Of a stretch of DNA of 64,000 nucleotides, positions 13,697-56,684 are shown in pieces. The notes under the pieces were generated by a model. It was given only the letters and a program-made list of their open reading frames with translations, was not told where the DNA came from and did no database searches. The translations under genes and the position numbers were made by a program. The stretch comes from Watersipora subatra (Eukaryota > Bryozoa > Gymnolaemata > Cheilostomatida > Watersiporidae): the NCBI RefSeq assembly GCF_963576615.1, contig NC_088711.1, forward strand, positions 4,836,001 to 4,900,000. The letters run 5' to 3'. Within the stretch, counting starts at the first letter, position 1. Each line of letters starts with the position of its first letter.

Positions 13697-13920
13697 AAAC
13701 ACCGCAATTTTAATATAATTAAATAGCATCAGGTGATAATTATATATAAATATAATGTTCATTTCTATCTATTCTTGCAACCTAAGAGTGCGGTTAAAAT
13801 CTAGTATGTATTTAAAAGCAATTACACAAAAATATTATTGAAATACGAAGTTTCGAAGAAACCGAAGCCCCATAGACATAGTTGGCAATCTTTATCAAAT
13901 CCAGAAGAAATAAACTTAAC

Positions 13921-15165
13921 AAAATTTGGAGCCTTACACAGTATTCATAGAGTATGCAAAAGCCTTTGACACTGTTTCACGAGATGAGCTCTGGAGTGTG
14001 CTACAAAAATCGGGATATGCTGTGACAGTAACCAACCTGATCAAAGCACATAATAAAGATGCAGGCACGAGTGGTTCAAGGCAAAGACTCGTCAAATGAG
14101 TTTGCAGTAACAAATGGAGTCAAGCAGGGCTGTCCTAGCTCCCACATCGTTTTCCAACTATCTGGCTGCTATGCTTCATGTATCCTTCAAGGATGTACAT
14201 TAGCCGGTGTACATACAGACAAGACAATGCAGATCTTTTCAACGTCTCCCATTTCAAAGCTAGATCTCGTACAACCAAACAGCTTGCTCCAGAGATTCCA
14301 CTTGCTGATGACTGTGCATTGGTTCCTCATTTTGCCACTGACATCCAGCTACTCCTGTACAAATTTGTCAGAGCTGCTTCTCTGGTTAACTTGAAGATTA
14401 ATATAAAAAAACAGAGTGAATGTACCAACGAATCAAACATCTACTTTGACCTCCTGAAGCCAAAAGCATCTTCATCAACCAAGAACCACCGGTTAAAGCC
14501 ACACACTTTACCTACTTTGAAAGCACTCTATCTATGATAGGAATAGGAAAGGAGCTCTAAGCAATGATGGGCAAAGTCAGTGCTGCTTTGGCAAGCTTTA
14601 GCTGAGACTAAAATTCGAGTGTGTCTCAGTCAGGGTGAAGTGTAAGGTGTATCAACCAGTGGTTCTGTCAACCCTCTTATATGGCACAGAGACCTAGATG
14701 ATTCATCGAGCCCAGGTGGAGAAACTACAGGCTGTGATGATGAAACATTTGAGGGACACGTTTCATTACCACATGATGACTGTCATTGATAGTCATCATG
14801 CTGACATGACAGCATGATGTCATGTCAGCATGACATGATGTCTACATTCATGCTGACATCATGAACATCAAGTGGGAAATATTAATACGGGCAGGCCTAT
14901 CATTAATGGCTGAGATCTGGTCAAAAAAATCTGCGATGGTTGGGCCAGGTATTCAGAATGGAACAAGACAGTCTTTCATGTCAACTATAATTATACTCAC
15001 AACTATGTGATGGTAAGCAAAATCATGAAAGGCTTAGACTCCACTATAAAGATGAGGCTAAAAGAAATTTAAAATGGAGACAGATCAAAACAAACTTATG
15101 GCAGACTGCTTGTAACCGAGCTGACTGGAGAGCTACTATCATACGTAAGTCACAATCATAAACAG
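13921..15165 (+). pseudogene. Decayed non-LTR retrotransposon (LINE) reverse transcriptase
   Basis: Conceptual translation, moving between frames, gives blocks characteristic of a LINE reverse transcriptase and its downstream region. In order they are: an EYAKAFDTVSRDELW block near 13950-14000 (palm motif A, with the catalytic-type Asp in AFD), FAVTNGVKQGCP at about 14101-14136 (motif B region), LLYGTETWMIHRAQ at about 14665-14710, and a terminal KDEAKRNLKWRQI...W.TACNRADWR block near 15050-15135. The frame is broken by stops and shifts, and the YADD-type active site is not intact. A hairpin cluster at about 14770-14870 also interrupts it. It is therefore an inactive, 5'-truncated copy. The clade cannot be assigned by eye. 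Confidence 0.8.
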
Positions 15166-21115: not shown

Positions 21116-21404
21116 CAAAGAAATAATAATGTGATACTAAAATATTGCAATTAAATATGGAATATATCACTTTTCAGAACGCGAATGTTTTTTATATGAA
21201 AAGAAATGTTGGTGCACATTTCTTCTGGTACTTGAGAATCATTAGCAAAGCTCATAACATGTAGTGCTACATGTATCTCTGTAATATATGGATGATTTGC
21301 ATAAAGTACATGCCTTGGCCACACGTTTATGTTGTCTTTTTGTCTGTAGTTAGGTGGATCCACCACAGTCTAGCATAATATTATTGTTTCAGGCTTCTGA
21401 AGCG

Positions 21405-27368
<5,964 letters not shown>

Positions 27369-28506
27369 GATGCCATTTGGGAGGAGGCAGGGTTCATCGT
27401 GCCATATATATATTTTTTTAGTTTATGTATTGATTCTATTACCTTTTGCCAAAAGGGCCGAGTAGAGATGCCCAACCCCTTTGCTACTTGAGTTCTTCTT
27501 CAGCATGCCAGTTCTTTTCCTACCACATTTCCATGCACCAGTCTTCTTTAAAGTTTTTGTAGGTTTTTTATTGGTTTCGAGGACAAAATTATTCTAATTT
27601 ATGTAAGCTTGCGATTGGAAACAAACACTGTGTTTGTTTCCTAAATATTTTGCAGCTTTTATGTAGCAGAATTTTGAACATCACAGGGTACCTACGGTTA
27701 TCACATTCCCGCCATCCTCGTCATCTCCCTACACGACTTTCTTAAAATTTGTGATGCTTGATATTCATGTTTTGTATCTGTGCACATGACCTCGCTGTAG
27801 GTGCTCGCAAAAGAGATCGTAGTCTGGACCAAAGGCTAGCCGCTGCAGAATTTGCTTATCATAATTTTTTCACTAGAAATTAACATCATGTTTCCCTCCT
27901 ACTAGCAACTCGGATTCCTCTTCAACTGCTGATAGAATACGTACCTTCCGCTTGTCGCACGCTGTAAAACCAAATGCCATTGGTCTACTTGTCTTGTGAG
28001 CCAAGTCTCTGATCGGCGCGTGATGTGACAATATGTGCATCTATAGTCCAGCAGTTACCTGTGATAGTTCCCTTGATTACTGCTGCTGATTATCCTGATT
28101 TTTGTTCCTACCGGTTGTTTTGTGTGCTGCAGGTAATTTTGATTTTATACGCAAGGTTCAATCTCTGTACACTCATCTATAGCAGCTCCAGTTCTATATC
28201 ATTGTTAGATTTTTTAAAATCAAACGTACAATCAAAAATGCAAAATTATTTATTAATAAAAATATACCCGAAATGTTGCATTAGAGCCAGGAAGCGTTTG
28301 CAGGTGTGCTATCATTAGGCGCGCCATCATTAAACTTATATCTAAGGATGTATTAGTTAACCTCAATTTTAAACTATCCAACTATTGACTGCTAGTCAGT
28401 GTCTGGTTTGCACTGTAGGCGTTTGTTACAGTTCAGCCTCACTCTCTAAGCACTTGTTTGGAATCACAACAAAACAAGTAGTACAACAAATATAGATTAT
28501 AAAAAG
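27369..28506. other. Intergenic between convergent HTATIP2-like and ZASP-like genes
   Basis: This should contain the 3' untranslated regions of both convergent genes. I see no further exon. TTTATT-type sequences near 28245-28260 could serve as minus-strand polyadenylation signals for the ZASP-like gene, but this is only a pattern match. Confidence 0.45.
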
Positions 28507-31500
28507 TTAGCAAGTGTTCCAAACAGGGTATGTCAACGACTTGTCCTGATGCTCATTGTAAAAGGTTATAGTTTGACTCAGTGTGTCTGGAACTTCTTCA
28601 TATTGTCGGAGAGGTCCATAGCCTGGGCCGTATTCTCCATAGCAGTGATAAAAGCCTACGTTCGGTTTATATCCTGTCTGTCGCTTGATTTGGTCTTCCC
28701 TCAAGACTGCTTTAAGTGTTGGAGATGTTTGAATTGTGCTTACCTTTCCACCAGGTCCAACAATTCTAAAAGATTGTATAAATTAGTTTTATACAAAATA
28801 TTTTCTTTCAAGCCTACATTGGCTTTGTATAATGCTCGTTGAACATAGATCAACGTCATACATAATGCTTCAAACATGCAGCTTTTTGAAAGTATGTACA
28901 TTTAATAAACATTTACTTGGTGAAAACCTTTTCAATGAAGAGTAGGCATATGTTCCAGTGCATACTGAAAAGCAATGACGGATATGATGAAGAAAAACAT
29001 TGAACTGTATTTAAATACAAAATTATATGCAATGTAATTTCAAGAAAATATTCCCATGAAGTTGGCAAAACTAACGGCGATGTCATCTTTACCATTTGCT
29101 AATCTAGCGATTAGCACAAACTTGATTACAAGTCCGTATACCATCCACCTGGACAGCGCCATCAATAATGCTGTAAAATGTCAAGTTTACTTCTATCAAA
29201 AGCTTGTTTTAGCGATTGCATAGCATTTACAGAACATCTCTCTTCAACCATCGCCGTATTAGACAGCTGCAGGAGGTTGTATATACACTTATAGTCGAGA
29301 GATAAAGGAACAGTTTGATACTTACCGTAACATGCTATGGCACCGGTTCAATTCTAGAATATACTGATAGGACCATATCTAAAAGTACAATGAAGTGACA
29401 TACGTACGAGACCATGCCAGACACCTGCACAAGTAGACATAGTACGTACATGGGTAGGTAAAAGCTAGACACCTGAGAATAGCTGAGAGCAAGCGCATAT
29501 AACAAACCGAGTGTGCAGTAGATGACAAGGATTCTGTATGTAACTAAGTACATGTATGATTAATTTCTTTGATTTACAAGTATTCGCAACAAACAAGAAA
29601 ACGATTTTGCTGATCAAACTCATCATGAAGAAGTTAGTACATGAATGTGCAGTAATGTGTTCAAGCTGAAATACCAAGAGTTACAATATGTCGTCCAATA
29701 ATGGTGGAGATTCCAAAATCATGCGATAGCTAGATATTTTATTGCTGCTATCCCGCGCCTTAGTTGTCTTTGTTTAAAAAATTAGTAGTTTTTGAATATT
29801 ATTAAAACAGCTGATTTGCATGGATGACAGAGGGTCACGAGGTAAAAACAGCTAAAGCAACATCATTCCTGAGTTATCTGCTCTTACTGAATTAGCTCGG
29901 ACGCTTCTTTATCTTTAGCTAATGCTTCCTGGGCATTTGCTGTTGAGTAGAGGGCCATTGGAGAGTTGAACTGAAGGTGTGCCGCAGACTTGCTTCCATG
30001 AAACAGTTGAAAATATTCGCCATTTAACCTGACTTCCACAGTTTCTCTAAGCATCTAATTACTATTAATATGAACTGTGGCTAACAGGCTTGTACCAGTG
30101 AATACTGTAGAAAAGTACAAACTGATAAAGGAACTAGGTCAAACATAGGCTTTTATTTCATGAGGTCGCAAGTTACATGAAATCGTTTCTCGCTAATCTA
30201 ATAAGCCTGTTTTATCGAAATAAGTTACATGGGAGTTGTTCACCCATAAGACCTATCTGCATAGAGTACTAATGGATTGCATCAAAGTCCAACTTACCCA
30301 GCTTGACTCTGGCTTGAAGCACTGACAACCTGAGGAGATCCTGCATGGCCAGCGTAGAATGGGGAAGGTTGCTGACCTAAAACAATTTGCGCAGCTGCTT
30401 TTGTAAGGTCTCTGTCGAGAAGCCATTTAATGACATCCATCCACCAGTAAGATATATAAAGGCAAGAAGAGGAAGCTATTATTATATAAGAAACAATGCG
30501 TACAGCTCGCATTTAGTTTAGCTGACATACTCATGAGTTTGCATTCTTATGCATTATTCTGCTGGCTACAGGGTGGCTGAATTGAATGCATATGAATCGC
30601 TTTTATATTGGTAGTTGCCGAGTAGTTTACTTGTTAGTGCAGCTGGCATTGCTGCTCTTCACAACCAAGTTTTATTAAGAAAAAAATGAGGATCTATCAA
30701 TGATTTACCCTCTTGTAGCAAAACAAAATACAGGCTACATTGCGAAACACTTATAATATTATAATTAAGAATACTGTATACTACGGAGTAGTCCTACACT
30801 AGAGACTTGTACCCAGTTGTTTAGTAGATGACTACATGATTTCGCTGACTGGCTGGTACTAAGCATCATTTGAAAAACGAAGTTGAAATGTGCCTGTAAA
30901 TAATTTTGTGAAAAGTACTTCTTTAGACTTAACAGATTCATTAGGCGCGTCTCACATAATAGACAGATGTCCCTCTATGTCTATGTCCCTATGCCTTGCT
31001 AATATTAGTAGGATTTGATCAAAATGTTGTTTGACTAGTTTCAGCATAAAATGTAGATATAAAACTTTCAGGAGACTACTAATGTATCTGAGCAGCCAAG
31101 GTAGTCCTTATTTTCAGTAAGCCACCATGGTTCTTCAGAAACACTGGTGTTGTTGGTGAAGGTAGAGAGAAATGTATCAACTTGAATCAGCTGCTTGTTA
31201 ACAACTAGTCAAGTCATTTCTGCTCTGTGTGTACAATGTACTGTAGGCCTAGCACCACATAGATTAGTCTGTGCATGGAGACAAAAAATAATTTAAAATG
31301 TTCTATGCTCGACCTCCCTAATTATTATATCAATATATGCCTGAAACCTAATGAAACACATTTTATTGTTAATGCTTCGAGACAGCGGGTCATGCACATG
31401 TTTGCCATGTGTCACTTTACAAGCGATGGGAGACATGCGGGTATGGCTACATATATCAGCATACATATATAGTTGGCACTCACTACTTGCTGGGGAAGAG

Positions 31501-32828
31501 GGGTATAACATCTGGTTCATTGATGGGGATCTCATCTCTATTCGGGCTGTCCTCTGACTACAAACTGGAGCCGAGTCTGCTCTTGTCCACACTGAGTTGG
31601 ACTTCGAGCTATAGCTTGACCTTCTGTTTAAGGTAGTGCAGCGACGTTCACGAGAAAAGAGCATCTCTTCACTCCCATTTGTCACATGCCCATCACTCGA
31701 ATGCTGCTTCGAAAGAGTAGGTCTTGATGTGAAGTTACGAGGCAAGGAGTTGTGAGTTATCATCACTTCCGCATAGCTCCGCCTTCTTCTTGGCTGGTTA
31801 TCAACACTGTTCATGGACAAGCTGTTGTCGCAGGTAAGTGGTTGCGAACTAGTCTGGTAGGCCGGTTGATAGTTACCGTCGGGTATGTAGGTCGCCTTCT
31901 GCGGAGAGTGAGGCGAGTTGCTCGTGATGATCACCTTGGTTGGGCTCTCTACCATTGTAGGGATGTGCAGCGGCAATGGAGGTCTGCTTTTGACAGCATC
32001 TCTTGATGGTTTTATATGCTGCCACGAAGTTGAAGACTCGTTGTTAACATTGCGAACAGCGACTTCCTGGTAAGGAGAAGCCGAGAGTTGTCTGCTCGGT
32101 ACTCTCATAGAGTTGTGCCTTATTCTTTGCGGCTCTGTTTTTTGTTCCTGAGAAGGGTCGTGGCTTACTTTAGACATTTGGTGTGTCGGCTTTTGTGTAG
32201 AGCTTCTGACATTCACAGTGTGCGTAGGCTGGGAATTATGAGTAGAGTCTGCTCTACTCTGAGGGCTGAAAAAAGGGGTTCCAACTGGTTTTTTGAAAGA
32301 CATCGGTGGTTTCTTACTAACCTGTGGTGAAGGCGGCCTTCTAAGAACATTTCTGGCTGGCCGCGGATGCATTTGATTGTTTGGCACACTTTCTCTCTCC
32401 TCCTTTTGTTTATCAACAAAAACTTTTCGAATATCATTGTAGCTCGGAAAATTTTCATCCATATCCGGATCTTCTCTGACATTTTTAACTTGATTGTTGT
32501 TTGAGTCCAAGGGCTGGTGATATACGGCAGCTGGTGAAGGTTGACCAAGTTGCTGGTGTTGGGGCTGTTCATTATACACCTGCTTTTGCTGCTCAGCATG
32601 GTAAAAGTGCTGCTTTTCAGTGCACTCATAAGGAGCCTGCTGCATCAAATGATTTTGGTTGGTATCAAAATTTTGGGAGCAAGCTGGGGTTTGCTGAAAA
32701 GACATTGAACTGAAAGGTGCGGGTGAGCGGTTATAGGTAGGTTGAGACACAGGGCTGTTAGGGTAGGGACCTTTATCATTACCTTTCTCAGCATAGTTTG
32801 TAGCAAACTGTGTCCAAGGCCGATACAT
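28507..32828 (-). CDS. ZASP-like Z-disc protein with ZM motif, lacking PDZ and LIM in this model
   Basis: Coding exons, from high to low coordinates: 32828-31484 (within an exon whose acceptor is at 32833-32834), 30376-30298, 30046-29888 and 28765-28507. They join in phase to a 613-residue protein. Residues 1-449 are one exon, disordered and rich in Ser, Pro, Gln and Asn. Exon 3 continues this (QQPSPFYAGHAGSPQ). Exon 4 holds residues 476-528, including LQFNSPMALYS followed by an EAL helix. This is the ZM (ZASP-like) motif that in ALP/ZASP proteins binds the alpha-actinin rod. The last exon encodes residues 529-613 with SPTLKAVLREDQIKRQTGYKP and a Tyr/Gly-rich FYHCYGEYGPGYG segment. ZASP family members normally start with a PDZ domain and many end in LIM domains; neither is found on this strand here. 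The start ATG has a good context (CAAAATG), four bases into its exon. A separate 5' exon is proposed at 34448. It may be a PDZ-less isoform of a larger locus. Confidence 0.8.
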
Positions 32829-33237
32829 TTTGCTAAAATGTGAAGAAAACCTGTTAGTTCTTCCTCCTCACCAGTCTCACCTCAAAAACAGAGAGAGTTG
32901 TCCTCTCTACTTGTTCTCATTACTTGCAGCATGATTACTGAAGGCTGACATAGGCTTCTAAGTCTATTATAAACGCAGTACAGTAACACAAAGAATGACC
33001 AGTTCATGAACTCTGACGGTGTATATAAGCCGATATCACTAGAATAGCAGCTGATGTAATTAAATGGCACGTAGCGATATTTTAGCCCATTTTTCCAAAT
33101 CCGCGGTTAAAACAATATTCTCAAAATTACAATGATTTTTGAAAGCGTTGTACATTTCCCAAATTTTGAAATTTACATACTGTATAAGTAGTCTAAACTG
33201 TCACTATTAGTATAATTACTATTGTTAATGTTTGATT

Positions 33238-34600: not shown

Positions 34601-34931
34601 AACCGTGTAATTGGCTGGGCACTTCCAGATTTCTAGCACCCGTCCCACCTAAATGTTAAGTGATCCTAGAAAGAAAGGAGGCTGTGAAAGTTCCCGTACT
34701 GAAGGCTAAATGCTCATCAATATGATGAGCATTAGGGATTGTTTCTTAAAAATAGTGTAACAATTAGACCACGCAGGCATTCCTTTCTGGGCTATAAACT
34801 GTCTCTATACACGTTTAGTGTACAAGTGACACTAGACTTGCAGACACGAGCTATTTTTTAGACAAATCATAAAACATTTTGCAAAAACATTCGACAAAAT
34901 TTCACATTAAATCATAAAACTCTCACACTTC

Positions 34932-35583
34932 CTCTCCGCGCCTTCCCTACTCTCCGCGCCTTCTCTACTCTCCGCGCCTTCCCTACTCTCCGCGCCTTCC
35001 TTATTCTCCGCGCCTTCCCTACTCTCCGCGCCTTCCTTATTCTCCGCGCCTTCCCTACTCTCCGCGCCTTCCCTACTCTCCGCGCCTTCTCTACTCTCCG
35101 CGCCTTCCCTACTCTCCGCGCCTTCCCTACTCTCCGCGCCTTCCCTACTCTCCGCGCCTTCCCTACTCTCCGCGCCTTCCCTACTCTCCGCGCCTTCCCT
35201 ACTCTCCGCGCCTTCCCTACTCTCCGCGCCTTCCCTACTCTCCGCGCCTTCCCTACTCTCCGCGCCTTCCTTATTCTCCGCGCCTTCCCTACTCTCCGCG
35301 CCTTCCCTACTCTCCGGGCCTTCCCTACTCTCCGCGCCTTCCCTACTCTCCGCGCCTTCCCTACTCTCCGTGCCTTTCCTACTCTCCGCGCCTTCCCTAC
35401 TCTCCGCGCCTTCCCTACTCTCCGCGCCTTCCCTACTCTCCGCGCCTTCCCTACTCTCCGCGCCTTCCCTATTCTCCGCGCCTTCCCTACTCTCCGCGCC
35501 TTCCCTACTCTCCGCGCCTTCCCTACTCTCCGCGCCTTCCCTACTCTCCGCGCCTTCCCTATTCTCCGCGCCTTCCCTACTCT
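34932..35583. repeat. 18-bp GC-rich minisatellite, ~36 copies
   Basis: The unit CTCTCCGCGCCTTCCCTA is tandemly repeated with very few variants (TTATTC for CTACTC, TTCTCT for TTCCCT, one GGGCC, one GTGCC). Because 18 is a multiple of three and the unit has no stop in several frames, both strands stay open. The minus strand could encode about 36 copies of Val-Gly-Lys-Ala-Arg-Arg between an ATG near 35600 and a stop at 34912. The array is far more GC-rich than its surroundings and has a CGCG in every unit. It lies upstream of the proposed first exon of the ZASP-like gene. Confidence 0.97.
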
Positions 35584-35601
35584 CTCACTGCTTTCTGACA
35601 C

Positions 35602-37388
35602 AGTAAAACAATGAGCTGAGTTTTAATAAACCTGTCACTACTGCTGCCTTGATTTTATGGCTGCCTATAACATATGGTTATACCTGAGAGCAAGTACTGA
35701 TGTATGATCGTACTGATTGCCTCATTCCTGTCAGCTCTCGATAATACTTGGTGAACACCTGCTTCAAATCACTTCCTTTGTCACCTAATGTGCAACATGC
35801 TGTATGCTTTGATATATCTATGTTTTTCTAATTATTGTTCAAGGCAACTCCATATGTCTTTTATGTGATGAAGTTTTTAAAAGTTTTACTGTATACACCA
35901 TCACTAGATGTTTCTGCTGCTTTCGGCATCATCAGGTAGTCTCCAACACCCTCCAATCGCCTCCCAACCCCTCTAACCGCTTCTAACACTATTTAGTTGT
36001 CTTCAACATCGTCCTTCCTGTACTCTATGCTGTCCCAAATGGCACTATAGGAATGTATCAAATATACCACCTAGAGCCACAATCAGTGATTAATTGATTA
36101 AGTCAAAATTGGCTTGAAGCAGTAGGAGTGAATGAGACAACCAGGGAAGATGCTGCAGGTAGCAGGTCTTTATATCCTACTAGAGTCTTATTGTTCCTGC
36201 ATCAGACCGCATTGAGACGCTGACCGACCTGCATGGATAAGACTTCGTAGAGGTAAGAAATAATTTATATTAATCTAAAATATTGTTTACCGGTGTTTAG
36301 TTTCACAATTTTTAAAATTGTCAATTTAGACAAAAAAACCTTAGATATATTTGATCCAGCATCACCAGAAGAGAGCCAACAAGGCAAAGAAAAGCTCCAC
36401 CCGTCTCTTTATTTCAACACACTGGTTAGTGTGGTCAGCTTATGTTCCTGTCAGTGCAAACTGGTGGACCAATGATGCATTTCAGTGAAGCAGCCATAGA
36501 TAGTGAGAGCTATAGGATGTTGTAGTCAGTATGGCTCTACTATGAGCGATTCCATATGAACATGTTTCATATATGCAGCAAAATATTTCACTTAATTGAC
36601 TTCCTGACTCGGAATAAACAAGACAAATGTGATTACCCACCAGCTGTCTTACACTCGCATTAGATTTATTGCAAGTATATAAAAACTATGAAACAAAAAT
36701 GCTATAATCAATAGTCTAAGCTGGTGCACCTGGTTGGTGTCGAACACTAGATAGCGATGAGGCAGCACTATATGTCCTGATTCTTTGAACTGTAAGCTAT
36801 TAATACAAATTACCTGTTGATCTGCCAGCTGTTTTTTTTGTACACAAAACGAAATATTTACTGCTTGTTTAAAATAAGGTTCCTGTTTGAGATGTTACAC
36901 CAGTAGCAATTTTTGAGCTTCTCCGTGTCCTGTTAGGTGCTAAATAATTACGGATACATTCCCTTGCTGCTGTAGAGAATGCATAGCAAACATTACTGGT
37001 GTCTAGTTACAGTTGATCACAGTCAACATTGATGTATAACAGTTAAGTTGTATCCTACACACAGCGCCTGGCAAACAACCCGAGTCAACTTGCTTCAAGT
37101 TATGACAGCCTTCATACCTCTCTTGTCAAACAAAATATTTCTGTTTGTGGAGTTTAAAAGGCTTTAGGTTGCAGCAAAATGGAGTTATAAGACGGACAAA
37201 CTGAGGAATGATATAGCCCACAGTGCGGTAAGGTATGGCAAAAATGCTGGTGGTCTATGAGTAATCTAAGAGACTTTGAACTGTTAAGCGATTAGGAATG
37301 GATGTGACGCCCTGCTGACAGCGATGAAACTGCTGGGCGGGGCTGTTAAATTGTGTCATAGCAATGCGCTGCGTCAGCTAGTTAGAAT
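35602..37388. other. Intergenic between divergent genes; nothing else recognised
   Basis: This separates the proposed starts of the ZASP-like gene (minus) and the Ser/Thr-rich gene (plus). No supported exon or transposon seen. Confidence 0.4.
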
Positions 37389-50374: not shown

Positions 50375-53300
50375 CTACTGTGCCATCTCATCTTGGTTTC
50401 CACGTTTTACTAGAGTAACAAATGCATTGTAGTCAAACTGTCCACCAGTTGGCTTAAACTCTTTCCAGACCTGTCGAATCTCCTCTTCTTTGAACTGATC
50501 ACCAACATTGAGCAACAGATCTTTTACACTACAAGTAAATCATCAAAAGTGAACGTCTTTAATTCAAATCTAGTATTATCGGTGAGTTTTTATCACAGAC
50601 CAGTTGGCAATAATGGATGTAAAACCCATATGAAACCATTTGATTGAAGATGTTACTTGAATTAATGCATTTGCGCGGTTTATCCTAAGAATGTGTCTGA
50701 GAGTTGAGATAAACTTGGAAAAGCAGCAGCATTTGTTACCAGGTAACAACTACTTACTACTCTTCAGTTAACTTTCCCTTCTTTTCTGGATCAAATTGTT
50801 CGAAAGCTTGTAAAAGTGTCGTTTCTGAGTCCGTCCCTGCAAGAGAATCAAATGATAGCAATATTTTACAAGTGGCTAGTCTTTCAATGCCAAGATGAAG
50901 CTAGGAGTCTGCTCTTGAGGAGACGATGTTGGTGCTATACAACATACCGTGCATTTTATCACCAAATAAAGTTAGAAAGGCTGTAAAGTTCAACTGTCCC
51001 GGGCATTCCTTCAACATTTCGTTTAGGTCTTTGTCTGATGGGTTGCGACCAAGGTCATTGTGAATAGCTTTCAGGTCTGCCACATCGATGAAACCATCAC
51101 GATTCACATCCATCATACCGAAAGCCTAGAAAGATCCAAGTTCTATTGAGGACTGTGTTGGTACTGAGATAAGTTGTTGAGCTAAGGTAAAACAGCTAGT
51201 ACAAACGGTAATACACCATCTACTTCCTTTGCTAAGAAGAGAGCAAAATTCCAACATTTGATTAACATTCACATTGATAAACAGTAGCACGCAGAGAAAC
51301 AAAGCAGTGAGTAGGGTTTGTCGATGTTAACATACCTTGTCTGTAATTGTAAGCAACATTGAATTCCAGATGCACGATCAGAATAATAGAAGATGAAAGA
51401 GAAATAGCTAGCTTTTCACAAATTTCTGTGGCACATGCATTAAGCACTCTTAGTAGTTAGGGACATGACTAGCAACTCACAAATAGTAGCAGGTAAAAGC
51501 TAAAAGGTTAGTCAGACGTGGTAAGTTGCCAAGCATTTGGAAGAAACTCGCTGAAAGAGTTAACAGTCATATAAAATCGTGATAGATACAGGAACAAGTT
51601 ATAAACTGATTTTCAACAATAGTTGACTATTCAACCTCCTTAAACTCTTGTATTTGAGTCTGGTTGAGTACAGCAAAGACATTGGATGTGCTGCGTTGCG
51701 CCCGCTTGTGTTCTTTTTCTTCACCAGCCGGCTCAGCTTTCCGAGATCGTCTATTAACTCTCTGCAATGTAGCAAGTGGTAAAGCAGGGATACAAATAGA
51801 GCATATCATAGCCTGAGTAGCGCGTGGGATAAGAAGAGGGGTAGTAAGGGGGTAAGCTTTGAACACCTGCCGCCAAACCAACTAGATAAACCACTGATTG
51901 CATTAGTAATGCCACTCATCTACCTTTGGTTTTTACAACAGTGGTCAAAATTTTAACAGTGGCTACATTAGTGAGGTTTGACAGCAGTGTGGTTCATTAA
52001 GAGTGCTGAGATAGCGAGCAGACGACTCAGGTCACCCAACATGGCGGCTGGTTAACAAAAAGAAGCAGCGAACTACAGGCAGCTGACACGAAAATCATAG
52101 CCAAGCTGTCACTGGTAGTGCCAGCAGAGCTGCGTACAGCAGCCAAGCCGTGGGGTGAAAGTAACTCCAGACCTCTTTGAACTCCTGAATTTGGGCTTGG
52201 GGAAACATGCCCAAGATATTGGTTGTTCCTTTTCGAGCCTTTTTCTGTAAAGATTTCATTAACATACAAAAAGCTTTCGACAGACATGCTTGCAAGGTAG
52301 AAGTGGTATCGCCTGGTACAAGCCTCGGTTTAAAGCTGAGACAATTAGACACAGGTGACTGGAACTTTAAGACTAGGGTTGGCTTCTGAGCACACAAATA
52401 CCCAGATCAGAGAACAAGCCGACAGACAGATTAATGAACATCGCGACCGGTTTTGGGTAGCAAATGCCTGCAAATGGGTATCAAGCAGCTGTTTGATTTT
52501 CAGACCTCTTTGAACTCTTGAATTTGTGATTGTGGGAACATTCCCAAAACATTTCCAGACTTCCTGACCATCTTCTGCAAGCACCAAGTTTAAAATGGAA
52601 GATGAAAGCGCATTAAGAATAAAAGATTAGCCCCCCCCAATTGAGCGCTAGAAGAAAAAAGTAGTCACATTTAGGAGTGTGGCTAACTACAATTGACAGG
52701 AAGGAATAAAGGAACTTCGACTTCCCGAGAAAGGCTTCGCCGCGATATCTTTAGAGCCTCTGGCTAATTTCATCTTTACCTCCTTTCTCGAGGCAGCTAT
52801 TCACAGGACCATTAAGGTATAAAACAATCTAAGATCTTAATACGGATTAGACTAGCCATAATTTGAGTCTGACAGCGTATTGGTCTGCGGCAATTACTGC
52901 TTAGTAGGAGGAAACTAGCTGTTAATTAAATGAGGCTATTTACTGGTGTTATATAGTTTATCATAAAGCCTAGAAACCTGCAATACATGCCTATAAGTCT
53001 TCGACTGCCATTGGTCTGCTTCACTAATTTAGTGTGAGAATCTTCAGGAGGCCATAACTCTCATGTCTAGCGTCTACTGTCTCATGTTAGCGGACTGATA
53101 ATTTCAATTAAAAAACTTAGATGAAGATATTTTAAATTTCTAGAAGGATTTAACTTGCAGATCATCAAGCAGGGTAGCACTGAGATGATTGAATTATAAG
53201 CAAGCCTCCCATATAAGGTACGTAATAGATAGCAGATGAGTAAATATCTTGGAGTGGGATTATGCCTCAGTTCATAGCTAGAATAGGCAGTATAAATATT

Positions 53301-53740
53301 GGTATAAGCTCACAGCTGCGTTCTCATTGAAACTGACAGAACCATGCATGGTAATCCCCTGCGCAATCACTGACTCCTGTTTTTCCACAGCGAGATTTCA
53401 ACACAGCATACTGTCCGAGTACACTCGCGCTAAATTCTAAACAAACTGCTAGAGTATCTCCGCTTTAGCTATGAATCCGACAGGCTCGCAATGTTGCAAT
53501 AGCTACAACACTGCTCTTACGCTGATGTGTTGCAAAAAAGCAAAATGTTGCTAAAGTGTGCGACTTAATGAAGTGAAAAAGGAGACAACACCAAACAAAT
53601 ATAATATTCTACTCGGTGTGAGGTTATACTCAAAATAACTGGTTTTAAAACCTATTTGCATAGCTTCAGTACATGTTAGGGACAATAATATACAATGAAA
53701 AGGAGAAAGCAATAACATTAATACGTACATCTTCTGCCAT
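50375..53740 (-). CDS. Muscle myosin regulatory light chain with three alternative N-terminal exons
   Basis: The gene reads from high to low coordinates. The start microexon is 53745-53729 (ATG at 53740, MAED), followed by one of three alternative exons (52574-52506, 52244-52173, 51761-51636). Constant exons are 51125-50948, 50836-50758 and 50528-50375. All junctions are in phase. Products are 163, 164 or 182 residues; molluscan regulatory light chains are about 155-160. In the 163-residue form the first EF-hand loop is residues 33-44 (D-V-N-R-D-G-F-I-D-V-A-D), the divalent-ion site that holds the chain on the myosin neck. MLKECPGQLNFTAFLTLFG follows in the constant region, then degenerate EF-hands and a FDYNAFVTLV end. 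Regulatory light chains bind the IQ2 segment of the myosin heavy chain and control the motor, by phosphorylation of the N-terminal arm or, in molluscs, through Ca2+ control with the essential light chain. The core looks muscle-type and mollusc-like. The mutually exclusive use of exons is inferred from phase and homology. Confidence 0.9.
51636..51761 (-). CDS. Alternative light-chain exon C: long arm with smooth/non-muscle-type kinase site
   Basis: The acceptor TTGCAG and donor GAG|GTTGAA bound 42 codons in phase 0 at both ends. The first 20 residues are strongly charged (many Arg, Lys and Glu). Then comes HKRAQRSTSNVFAVLNQTQ and the shared IQEFKE end. RSTSNVFAV matches the vertebrate smooth/non-muscle and fly cytoplasmic light-chain phosphorylation segment, with Thr-Ser at the Thr18/Ser19 positions and the basic run upstream that myosin light chain kinase needs. 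The donor is a weak match to consensus. Confidence 0.85.
52173..52244 (-). CDS. Alternative light-chain exon B
   Basis: 24 codons between an acceptor (TTTACAG) and a donor (GAG|GTCTGG), phase 0 at both ends. It encodes KKARKGTTNILGMFPQAQ followed by IQEFKE. Aligned on N-(V/I)-(F/L), the two residues equivalent to Thr18/Ser19 are Thr-Thr, so phosphorylation is possible but the site is altered. It is closely similar to exon A in the GMFPQxQIQEFKE part. Confidence 0.85.
52506..52574 (-). CDS. Alternative light-chain exon A
   Basis: 23 codons between an acceptor (CTTGCAG) and a donor (GAG|GTCTGA), phase 0 at both ends. It encodes KMVRKSGNVLGMFPQSQ followed by IQEFKE. In the alignment the Ser19 position is Gly and the Thr18 position is Ser, so the main kinase target is lost or shifted. 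Together with exon B it probably arose by a tandem exon duplication. Confidence 0.85.
53209..53218. promoter_or_regulatory. CArG-box match in light-chain intron
   Basis: CCATATAAGG is an exact CC(A/T)6GG serum-response-factor site in the intron between the start microexon and alternative exon A. SRF controls many muscle genes. In AT-rich sequence of this length a few chance matches are expected, so this is only suggestive. Confidence 0.25.
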
Positions 53741-53745
53741 CTTGT
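53729..53745 (-). CDS. 17-nt start-codon microexon of the light-chain gene
   Basis: A short pyrimidine tract and TTTGTAG precede ACAAGATGGCAGAAGAT, followed by the donor GTACGT. It gives five leader bases and the codons for Met-Ala-Glu-Asp, phase 0, fitting all three alternative exons. Molluscan regulatory light chains begin with similar short acidic starts. Confidence 0.75.
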
Positions 53746-54423: not shown

Positions 54424-54433
54424 CTGTTGGTGG
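54424..54433 (-). other. Candidate 10-nt leader microexon of the light-chain gene
   Basis: On the minus strand a strong pyrimidine tract (TTTCTCTTTTGTCTTTCCC) and TACAG are followed by CCACCAACAG and the donor GTAAGC. If used, it would be an untranslated microexon upstream of the start exon. Transcript data are needed; the splice signals alone are unusually good on both sides. Confidence 0.4.
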
Positions 54434-55636
54434 CTGTAGGGAAAGACAAAAGAGAAATATATATGGTATATAAGTAATGACTTGTTGCGTTCTGCTAAGC
54501 TATTGCCCAAGTGACTGCTGAAGTCTACAGGTGGTGACCAAAGCAATTTAGCTGCTGATGTTGCAGAGGTAGACCACACCCCCTCACTCCTGTAATTTAT
54601 ACCTCCTATGTCCACAAATGGCCATTAAATTGCCTAATATGGAAAGTTGAAGGCGGGCCTAACTCTTTGAGTGAACTTTCGCGGTGTGTCCTGGGATATG
54701 AGGGCAGCAGTCTCGCTTTAGTAATTATTAAGTACAGCTGGTAATTAGGAAGAGTCATGATGCGCATGCACATATCTACAGTCAATATATTAATATATAA
54801 AAAGAATGAAGCACTACTGAGCGAGCCGTAGTAAAAGACTGGCGGTTATTGCTGATATCAATATCATCTAGACAAGCCATTCCCAAACAATACAAACTGC
54901 AAGATTTCACACAAAGATATTTGATCATAATTGTGATACGCAAATTGTGTGGCAAATGGTTGGCATAACATGTATTGCAGTGAATGGAATTGTACCATGG
55001 AAAGCATCTCTCTGATCAACAAAAACTGTCTAGTTAACAAATACTTCCTGATCTCCTTCCGGCTATTTTTGGAATGATACGTTTACCTCCTACTTTTCTC
55101 TGTCTGTTGCAATAGCGGCAGAATAAGACTGATTCACTGATCTCTTGTGTCTTGGGACTGGCTCTCAAAATTACATGCACACATTCATGTACATACATGC
55201 GTGTGTATGTATACACACATATCGGGCAAATTTATCACATCGCTCAATCCTAATTTTGCTAGTTTTGCTCTGGTTGAGATTATTACACCCCATGCAACAT
55301 TATAAAGAGAAGGTGTAACCAAAGAAGCTGTAAGCAAAGAGGTTACAGCCATTTTTAGTCTACATTCACTAATGTACTGGCAGTAAAGTCAGCTGTTTAA
55401 TATATCAATTTTATTTTAATTCCCAATTTGTAGCTTGACTTCCTTTGTTGAAAGTGCTGAACAACATATTACGTTATTGGAGTAGATCCACAAAACATCT
55501 ATTCAGCAGTCGCATTGCTCAACATCTGAAAGTTTGTTTCTTCTGCATATGTAGGTCTTTATTCTTCACAAACATGACTGATTATTATGAAAAAATGTTG
55601 CATTATATCTCTACAAATTAAGCAAAAATTATTTCT
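54434..55636. other. Upstream region of the light-chain gene; nothing else recognised
   Basis: This probably contains the promoter and first exon of the light-chain gene (minus strand), but I cannot place them. No transposon or repeat array noted. Confidence 0.35.
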
Positions 55637-55990
55637 ATCGTACAGTTCACATTTCTATCATACAGTTCACATTGCTATCATACAGTTCACATTTCTATCA
55701 TACAGTTCACATTGCTATCATACAGTTCACATTTCTATCATACAGTTCACATTTCTATCATACAGCTCACATTTCTGTCATACAGTTCACATTTCTATCA
55801 TACAGTTCACATTTCTATCATACAGTTCACATTTCTATCATACAGTTCACATTTCTATCATGCAGTTCACATTTCTATCATACAGCTCAAATTTTTATTA
55901 TACAGTTCACACTCCTATCATACAGTTCACATTTCTATCATACAGCTCAAATTTCTATCATACAGTTCACACTCCTATCATACAGTTCTC
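55637..55990. repeat. 20-bp minisatellite, ~18 copies
   Basis: The unit TTTCTATCATACAGTTCACA is repeated with few variants (TTGCTATC, CACTCCTATC, CAGCTCAAA). The 20-bp period leaves all three plus-strand frames open; these frames are rejected as genes. Confidence 0.97.
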
Positions 55991-56000
55991 ACTTCAGTAA

Positions 56001-56150
56001 TTAGCCTTAACCACATTCTTGCCAGCGTGTATTAACACAGTTAGGCGGCGTAATAGAGTTAGTCACTATCCCAGCCTTTAATGAGAAAAAAGTTCAAAAT
56101 TATACATTAAGACTAATGTAGCATCATGACTGGTGGAACCTGGAACTGTG
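56001..56150 (+). repeat. Dispersed ~145-bp repeat, copy 1
   Basis: Matches 58194-58338 in the same orientation, from CTTGCCAGCG through ACACAGTTAGGC and GTTAGTCAC to TAGCATCATG and GGTGGAACCTGGAAC. It lies between two minisatellite arrays. Confidence 0.85.
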
Positions 56151-56169
56151 TACAATAATGCACTGGATT

Positions 56170-56421
56170 GCAATATATCACCAGTATATAGTGATACAGT
56201 AGACTGCAGTACATCACTAGTATATAGTTGTACAGTAGACTGTAGTACATCACCAGTATATAGTGATACAGTAGACTGTAGTACATCACCAGTATATAGT
56301 TGTACAGTAGACTGTAGTACATCACCAGTATATAGTTGTACAGTAGACTGTAGTACATCACCAGTATATAGTTGTACAGTAAACTGTAGTACATCACCAG
56401 TATATAGTTGTACAACCGACT
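56170..56421. repeat. 36-bp minisatellite, ~7 copies
   Basis: Units start AGTACATCACCAGTATATAG and end TTGTACAGTAGACTGT, with TGAT/TTGT variants. The period keeps frames open on both strands, which I do not treat as genes. Confidence 0.95.
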
Positions 56422-56684
56422 GCAGTTATACAATACTTGTTAGTTATACTTGCGTACATTAGATGAATATTCTAAAAAAACTGAAGAGTACTCTCTATAG
56501 TATTTGCAATGAATATTCACTTGTCATGGCTTGCTTGACACATAGGAGGTACTTAGACTAGGCCATATAATTATTCTTGTAACCTCCTTTTCATTGCCAC
56601 TCACATACACCTGTCCTCCTCCACTCATTATTCTCAAAAAGAATTAAGCTAAAATAACATGGGTGTAGTAGCTCTGAGGATAAT

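Follow-up and report, generated by a model that had tools for sequence, protein, structure and literature searches.

In the 64-kb stretch of DNA that was analysed as a whole (hereafter the window), we found that a myosin regulatory light chain (RLC) is encoded on the minus strand by an intact gene, in which three tandem exon copies, designated C, B and A, appear to serve as alternative N-terminal arms, one of them being inserted by splicing between the shared start exon and the shared EF-hand exons. We assign this reading a probability of about 0.8. According to it, splicing would pick one arm per transcript, and the choice would be tissue-specific.

Layout of the gene and identity of its product

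The features of the gene are listed in Table 1. Exons C, B and A are all in phase 0, with AG before and GT after, and the length of each is a multiple of 3. When spliced singly to the constant exons, they yield proteins of 163, 164 and 182 amino acids, respectively, without an internal stop, and the omission of all three together also leaves an open frame. The intron between C and B measures 261 nt and that between B and A 411 nt. On re-splicing the sequence, all the coordinates, phases, GT/AG borders and the three protein lengths given in the first-pass annotation were reproduced, and the end that it described as shared by the three exons proved to be the longer string QIQEFKE, present in each of C, B and A.

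Table 1. Features of the RLC gene and its surroundings, in the order of transcription (window coordinates)
Feature	Position	Strand	Description and basis
CArG match CCATATTAGG	54633..54642	-	just upstream of the TATA-like box
TATA-like TATAAAT	54595..54601	-	motif, upstream of the first exon
Probable non-coding first exon	54424..54570	-	donor CAG/GTAAGC at 54424; 5′ end estimated only from the TATA-like box
Start microexon, 17 nt	53729..53745	-	ACAAG ATG GCA GAA GAT = MAED; AG/GT borders
Alternative exon C, KMVRKSGNVLGMFPQSQIQEFKE, 69 nt	52506..52574	-	sequence, frame, repeat search, arm alignment
Alternative exon B, KKARKGTTNILGMFPQAQIQEFKE, 72 nt	52173..52244	-	sequence, frame, repeat search, arm alignment
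Candidate stem, intronic arm	52045..52064	-	18/20 complementary to 51711-51730; upstream of the exon A acceptor
Alternative exon A, 126 nt; 19 charged residues precede RAQRSTSNVFAVLNQTQIQEFKE	51636..51761	-	sequence, frame, arm alignment
Candidate stem, exonic arm, with purine run GAAGAAAAAGAA	51711..51730	-	within exon A
Constant exon 1, EF-hand I DVNRDGFIDVAD	50948..51125	-	frame, Pfam
Constant exon 2	50758..50836	-	frame
Constant exon 3, with stop codon	50375..50528	-	frame

CArG is the consensus of the SRF site. The window holds 8 CArG matches, compared with 5.0 on average over 200 mononucleotide shuffles, a number so near that of the shuffles that only the position of the match at 54633-54642 is suggestive. 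Two adjacent tandem repeat arrays (55620-56000 and 56078-56462) lie upstream of the putative RLC promoter.

The constant exons matched EF-hand Pfam families above the cut-off; with an E limit of 1e-25 they also matched 27 PDB sequences, each of which is designated as an RLC, a myosin light chain or a myosin head. The best nine of these matches scored 142.7-145.7 bits and the remaining 18 scored 119.6 bits or less; we take the nine to be scallop or squid muscle RLCs. Over 128 aligned residues, the constant part is 54.7% identical to scallop RLC u33693, 54.7% to squid RLC u46648 and 44.5% to human MYL9. The squid and scallop RLCs are nearer to each other (60.6% identity) than either is to the window RLC, and in a six-row RLC tree the latter joined squid weakly (70/81), on a long branch. 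The metal ligands of EF-hand I (D-x-N/D-x-D-G-x-I-D) are in place, DVNRDGFID being aligned to scallop DQNRDGFID, and so is the Gly of the M/V-G-D motif (NVGDQF aligned to NMGDNF), which has a role in the calcium-regulated RLC of molluscan muscle. With presumed scallop and squid muscle RLCs as its best matches, the gene belongs, as judged by its constant part, to the molluscan muscle type and does not obviously encode the cytoplasmic form; the RLC similarity would point to a mollusc or a near relative of molluscs. A search for relatives among viral contigs gave no match, and a pattern search of genome contigs matched 17 stretches, only one of which held up, in an Opitutales MAG (28 residues at 54%), and this one is uninformative. 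The window contained 0 Rfam matches and 0 ARAGORN genes.

Diverged exon copies and the scallop arm swap

When the 64 kb were translated in all six frames, the pattern QE[FMLY]KE appeared three times, once each in exons C, B and A. In a repeat search of 50950-53730, the triplet emerged as a three-copy family of 53 nt, which comprises the exon end and five intron bases; identity to B, taken as the reference, is 85% for C and 62% for A. Within the QIQEFKE codons, 4 of the 21 sites vary among the three exons and all four changes are synonymous, compared with 12.7% of the possible single changes in the exon B copy, thus indicating that each exon has been kept as a coding sequence. The intron flanks of the three exons (60 nt on each side, six comparisons) showed no similarity beyond chance, the lowest value being 97/2000 shuffles, so that the duplications look old. 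On these comparisons, C, B and A are old exon duplications under selection for the protein, with C and B as the closer pair.

The closest parallel, and the strongest support for a swap of the arm by splicing, is provided by two scallop RLCs in the PDB, u52845 (3pn7, 3ts5, 3tuy) and u33693 (2os8, 2otg). Both carry DK near the start, at residues 2-3 and 3-4, respectively (the first residue of u52845 is absent from the sequence compared), after which their arms differ (ERAQRATSNVFARLPQKLM in u52845 vs. AASGVLTKLPQKQI in u33693). From QEMKE on, the two are identical at 137 of the 137 residues compared (chains 3pn7_B and 2os8_B), while another scallop RLC, u2277, differs within that stretch. Complete identity of the pair together with the divergence of u2277 is most simply explained by one gene with one swapped segment, and we infer that a single gene makes both chains. 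We take 3pn7, 3ts5 and 3tuy to represent the catch/smooth RLC and 2os8 and 2otg the striated one, both from the sea scallop. The swapped segment ends where exons C, B and A end, and the anatomy of the window gene follows the scallop plan of a common start, a swapped arm and an identical constant part. Alike are the DK near the start and the alternative arms (an RAQRATSNVFA type with a phosphosite and an SGVL type without it), followed in scallop by the identical residues. Unlike scallop, where two arms are seen, the window gene has three, and the scallop catch arm lacks the 19 charged residues that stand ahead of RAQR in exon A.

Exon A is identical to the scallop catch-type arm at 16 of 26 positions over RAQR-TSNVFA, with an alignment score of 63.0 vs. 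36.0 for the striated-type arm, and on this alignment it is clearly homologous to the former. Exons C and B share 12/22 and 11/22 residues, respectively, with the striated-type arm and 9/26 each with the catch-type arm, their scores being 44.5 (catch-type) vs. 42.0 (striated-type) for C and 54.0 vs. 49.0 for B. The pairing of C and B with the striated-type arm is weak, because the scores do not favour that arm and because A, B and C all score highest to human MYL9.

Exon borders, frames, the repeat family and the scallop arm swap bear out the view of the first-pass annotation that one locus holds three exchangeable N-terminal arms. Its further suggestion that such an arrangement has no described precedent is not supported as it stands, since the scallop chains 3pn7_B and 2os8_B had already made a two-way arm swap visible. 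Nor is its contrast between muscle and cytoplasmic light chains supported by the nine best PDB matches, presumably all scallop or squid muscle RLCs, or by the scallop arm swap. A contrast between striated and smooth/catch-type muscle seems the likelier, given the muscle-RLC matches, the scallop arm swap and the two RLC isoforms that a passage of PMC12040844 describes for catch muscle, one common with striated muscle and the other catch-specific, bearing a phosphosite of unknown role.

Proposed selection of a single arm

Exons C, B and A have the same phase, the same splice-site pattern and the sequence similarity by which mutually exclusive exon clusters are recognised, and their mutual exclusion is plausible. 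In length they are unlike most mutually exclusive exon sets, A (126 nt) being much longer than C (69 nt) and B (72 nt). As all these lengths are multiples of 3, mutual exclusion is not enforced by the frame, and the idea that double inclusion would break the frame was rejected on the same ground. Nothing that would impose exclusivity is visible, as all sites are GT-AG and the two introns within the triplet are long enough for normal splicing. These features would allow C, B and A to behave as cassette exons that are not strictly exclusive, with some transcripts including two of them or none and encoding longer or arm-less RLCs: all are in phase 0 and of a length that preserves the frame, the skipping of all three leaves the frame open, and we saw no steric, frame or splice-class obstacle. 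We nevertheless consider this unlikely, for each of the two scallop chains holds a single arm, and helix starts with QIQEFKE placed in tandem would be structurally odd.

U1 pairing of the donors amounts to -4.4, -4.9 and -4.2 kcal/mol for C, B and A, respectively, to -3.1 kcal/mol for the start exon, and to -11.5, -7.2 and -5.5 kcal/mol for the constant donors. The weakness of the exon donors speaks for the use of just one or two members of the triplet, the others being silent remnants of duplication. The weakest donor is that of the start exon, so that a weak donor does not set the alternative exons apart. All three copies keep an open frame, their borders and a QIQEFKE end with synonymous-only differences, and A matches a scallop arm that is present in a solved protein, which makes silent remnants quite improbable. 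The pyrimidine content of the acceptors ranges from 53 to 65% for the alternative exons vs. 59-82% for the constant ones, and the two ranges overlap.

Another way to choose some of the arms, e.g., exon C without the start microexon, would be the use of alternative promoters instead of splicing from one start. An internal promoter for C is conceivable in view of the CArG match (53218-53209) and the TATA-like TATATAA (from 52955) in the intron upstream of this exon, and of the in-frame ATG that forms its second codon (AAG ATG GTC AGG). As an explanation of the arm choice, alternative promoters appear very improbable, in that exon A has no in-frame ATG, the use of the single one in exon B (LGM) would remove most of the arm, the DK near the start of both scallop arms fits a common start exon, and the motif matches are near chance level.

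As to elements that may govern splicing of a single arm to the common start, a candidate stem was found between the intron upstream of exon A and exon A itself (Table 1), with the exon A acceptor in the loop. It is predicted to form with a pairing probability of at least 0.61 for all 18 pairs and a duplex energy of -23.0 kcal/mol. An 18/20 stem was reached by 0/60 shuffles of 51126-53728 and 0/400 shuffles of 51636-52172, but by 6 of 22 blocks elsewhere in the window, and as a control element the stem across the exon A acceptor is only a lead. Among whole-intron duplexes in six intron pairs, the best one (I1-I3) was matched by 2/40 shuffles and was taken as nothing, this test being blind to short docking sites. 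For seven classes of regulator motifs, 28 tests over four introns revealed no convincing excess, the lowest P being 0.05 for ACUAAY in the B-A intron.

Predicted phosphorylation of the arms and related systems

Arm A carries RAQRSTSNVFA, a phosphorylation arm of the smooth/catch type, behind its 19 charged residues, and the context R-x-T-S-N-V-F is an MLCK-type motif. Arm B has K-G-T-T-N-I-L, with Thr-Thr at the phosphosite position, and arm C has K-S-G-N-V-L, where Gly replaces the second acceptor, as in the scallop striated arm. Inclusion of arm A would bring in an MLCK-type phosphorylation site behind a charged extension, and that of arm B a weaker-looking Thr-Thr site; arm C lacks the second acceptor, and a muscle using it would probably not be phosphorylation-tunable. 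The spliced arm may in this way decide whether the myosin of a given muscle is tunable by phosphorylation on top of its direct calcium regulation.

Long RLC extensions are reported in part of PMC2674065 for tarantula and fly, where they are thought to link thick and thin filaments. For oyster, excerpts of two papers name a RefSeq protein 'MRLC B, smooth adductor muscle isoform', which one of them numbers X2 and the other X1 (PMC6829514, PMC9867001). A bolder picture, which we put forward tentatively and regard as rather doubtful, would be a three-state switch in which C is unphosphorylatable, B weakly and A fully phosphorylatable with a tarantula/fly-like extension, while A is held off by the stem, with its acceptor spanned and a purine-rich enhancer masked; the swap itself may predate molluscs.

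The original reports on splicing of the scallop heavy chain and catchin are said to be those of Nyitray in 1994 and Yamada in 2000. According to sections of PMC5963113 and PMC12040844, scallop myosin heavy chain and catchin/myorod are alternatively spliced from one gene. Just as proposed for the window gene, striated and smooth/catch myosin parts come from a single gene there, the difference being that the heavy chain is concerned and not the light chain. In the muscle Mhc genes of metazoans, as presented in parts of PMC3912159, the mutually exclusive exon clusters are similar in that tandem homologous exons have equal phase and borders; unlike them, the window gene encodes a light chain, and its alternative exons are not all similar in length. 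The term 'light chain' has 0 occurrences in the main text of that paper. The annelid Platynereis counts against the splicing model, since its smooth and striated RLCs come from separate genes according to a portion of PMC5167519; Platynereis and the vertebrate MRLC share the smooth/striated contrast but achieve it with two genes, not with swapped exons.

In the open-licence PMC literature that we searched, we found no gene-level description of exons for RLC arms, a weak negative because most older muscle papers lie outside it, and the available portions of the Chlamys genome paper (PMC5700196) and the squid cell atlas (PMC9839350) contained nothing on RLC isoforms. Relative to the open-licence literature, the gene anatomy, the third arm and the charged extension of exon A appear to be new, the principle of the swap being already apparent from the scallop proteins. 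An exchange of the arm alone would provide a natural test of the catch-specific phosphorylatable RLC arm, the role of which is given as unknown in a passage of PMC12040844. Within a single animal, knockouts at the exon level could part the control of myosin by phosphorylation from its direct control by calcium. The window gene would also extend to a light chain the known molluscan habit of using a single gene for the parts of both striated and smooth myosin.

Elsewhere in the window, the peptide HLQFNSPMALYSTANAQEALAK (29887-30054, within 27185-32867, both on the minus strand), which we assume to be ZASP/PDLIM-like, gave a sub-threshold match to DUF4749 (E 1.4e-5, 26.3 bits vs. 28.7). A long Ser/Pro-rich reading frame of 524 aa at 31296-32867, without a Pfam match, is possibly part of the same gene, a putative one of the Z-disc type that is situated ~18 kb from the RLC gene. 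On the plus strand, peptides at 21354-21584 and 25216-25482, with weak NAD-binding Pfam matches in the first and none in the second, presumably represent a short-chain oxidoreductase of the HTATIP2/TIP30 type that is split over exons, and a peptide at 13920-14096, also on the plus strand and without a Pfam match, is in our assumption a LINE reverse transcriptase fragment. A ~0.7 kb tandem repeat at 34862-35622 shows several open frames on both strands.
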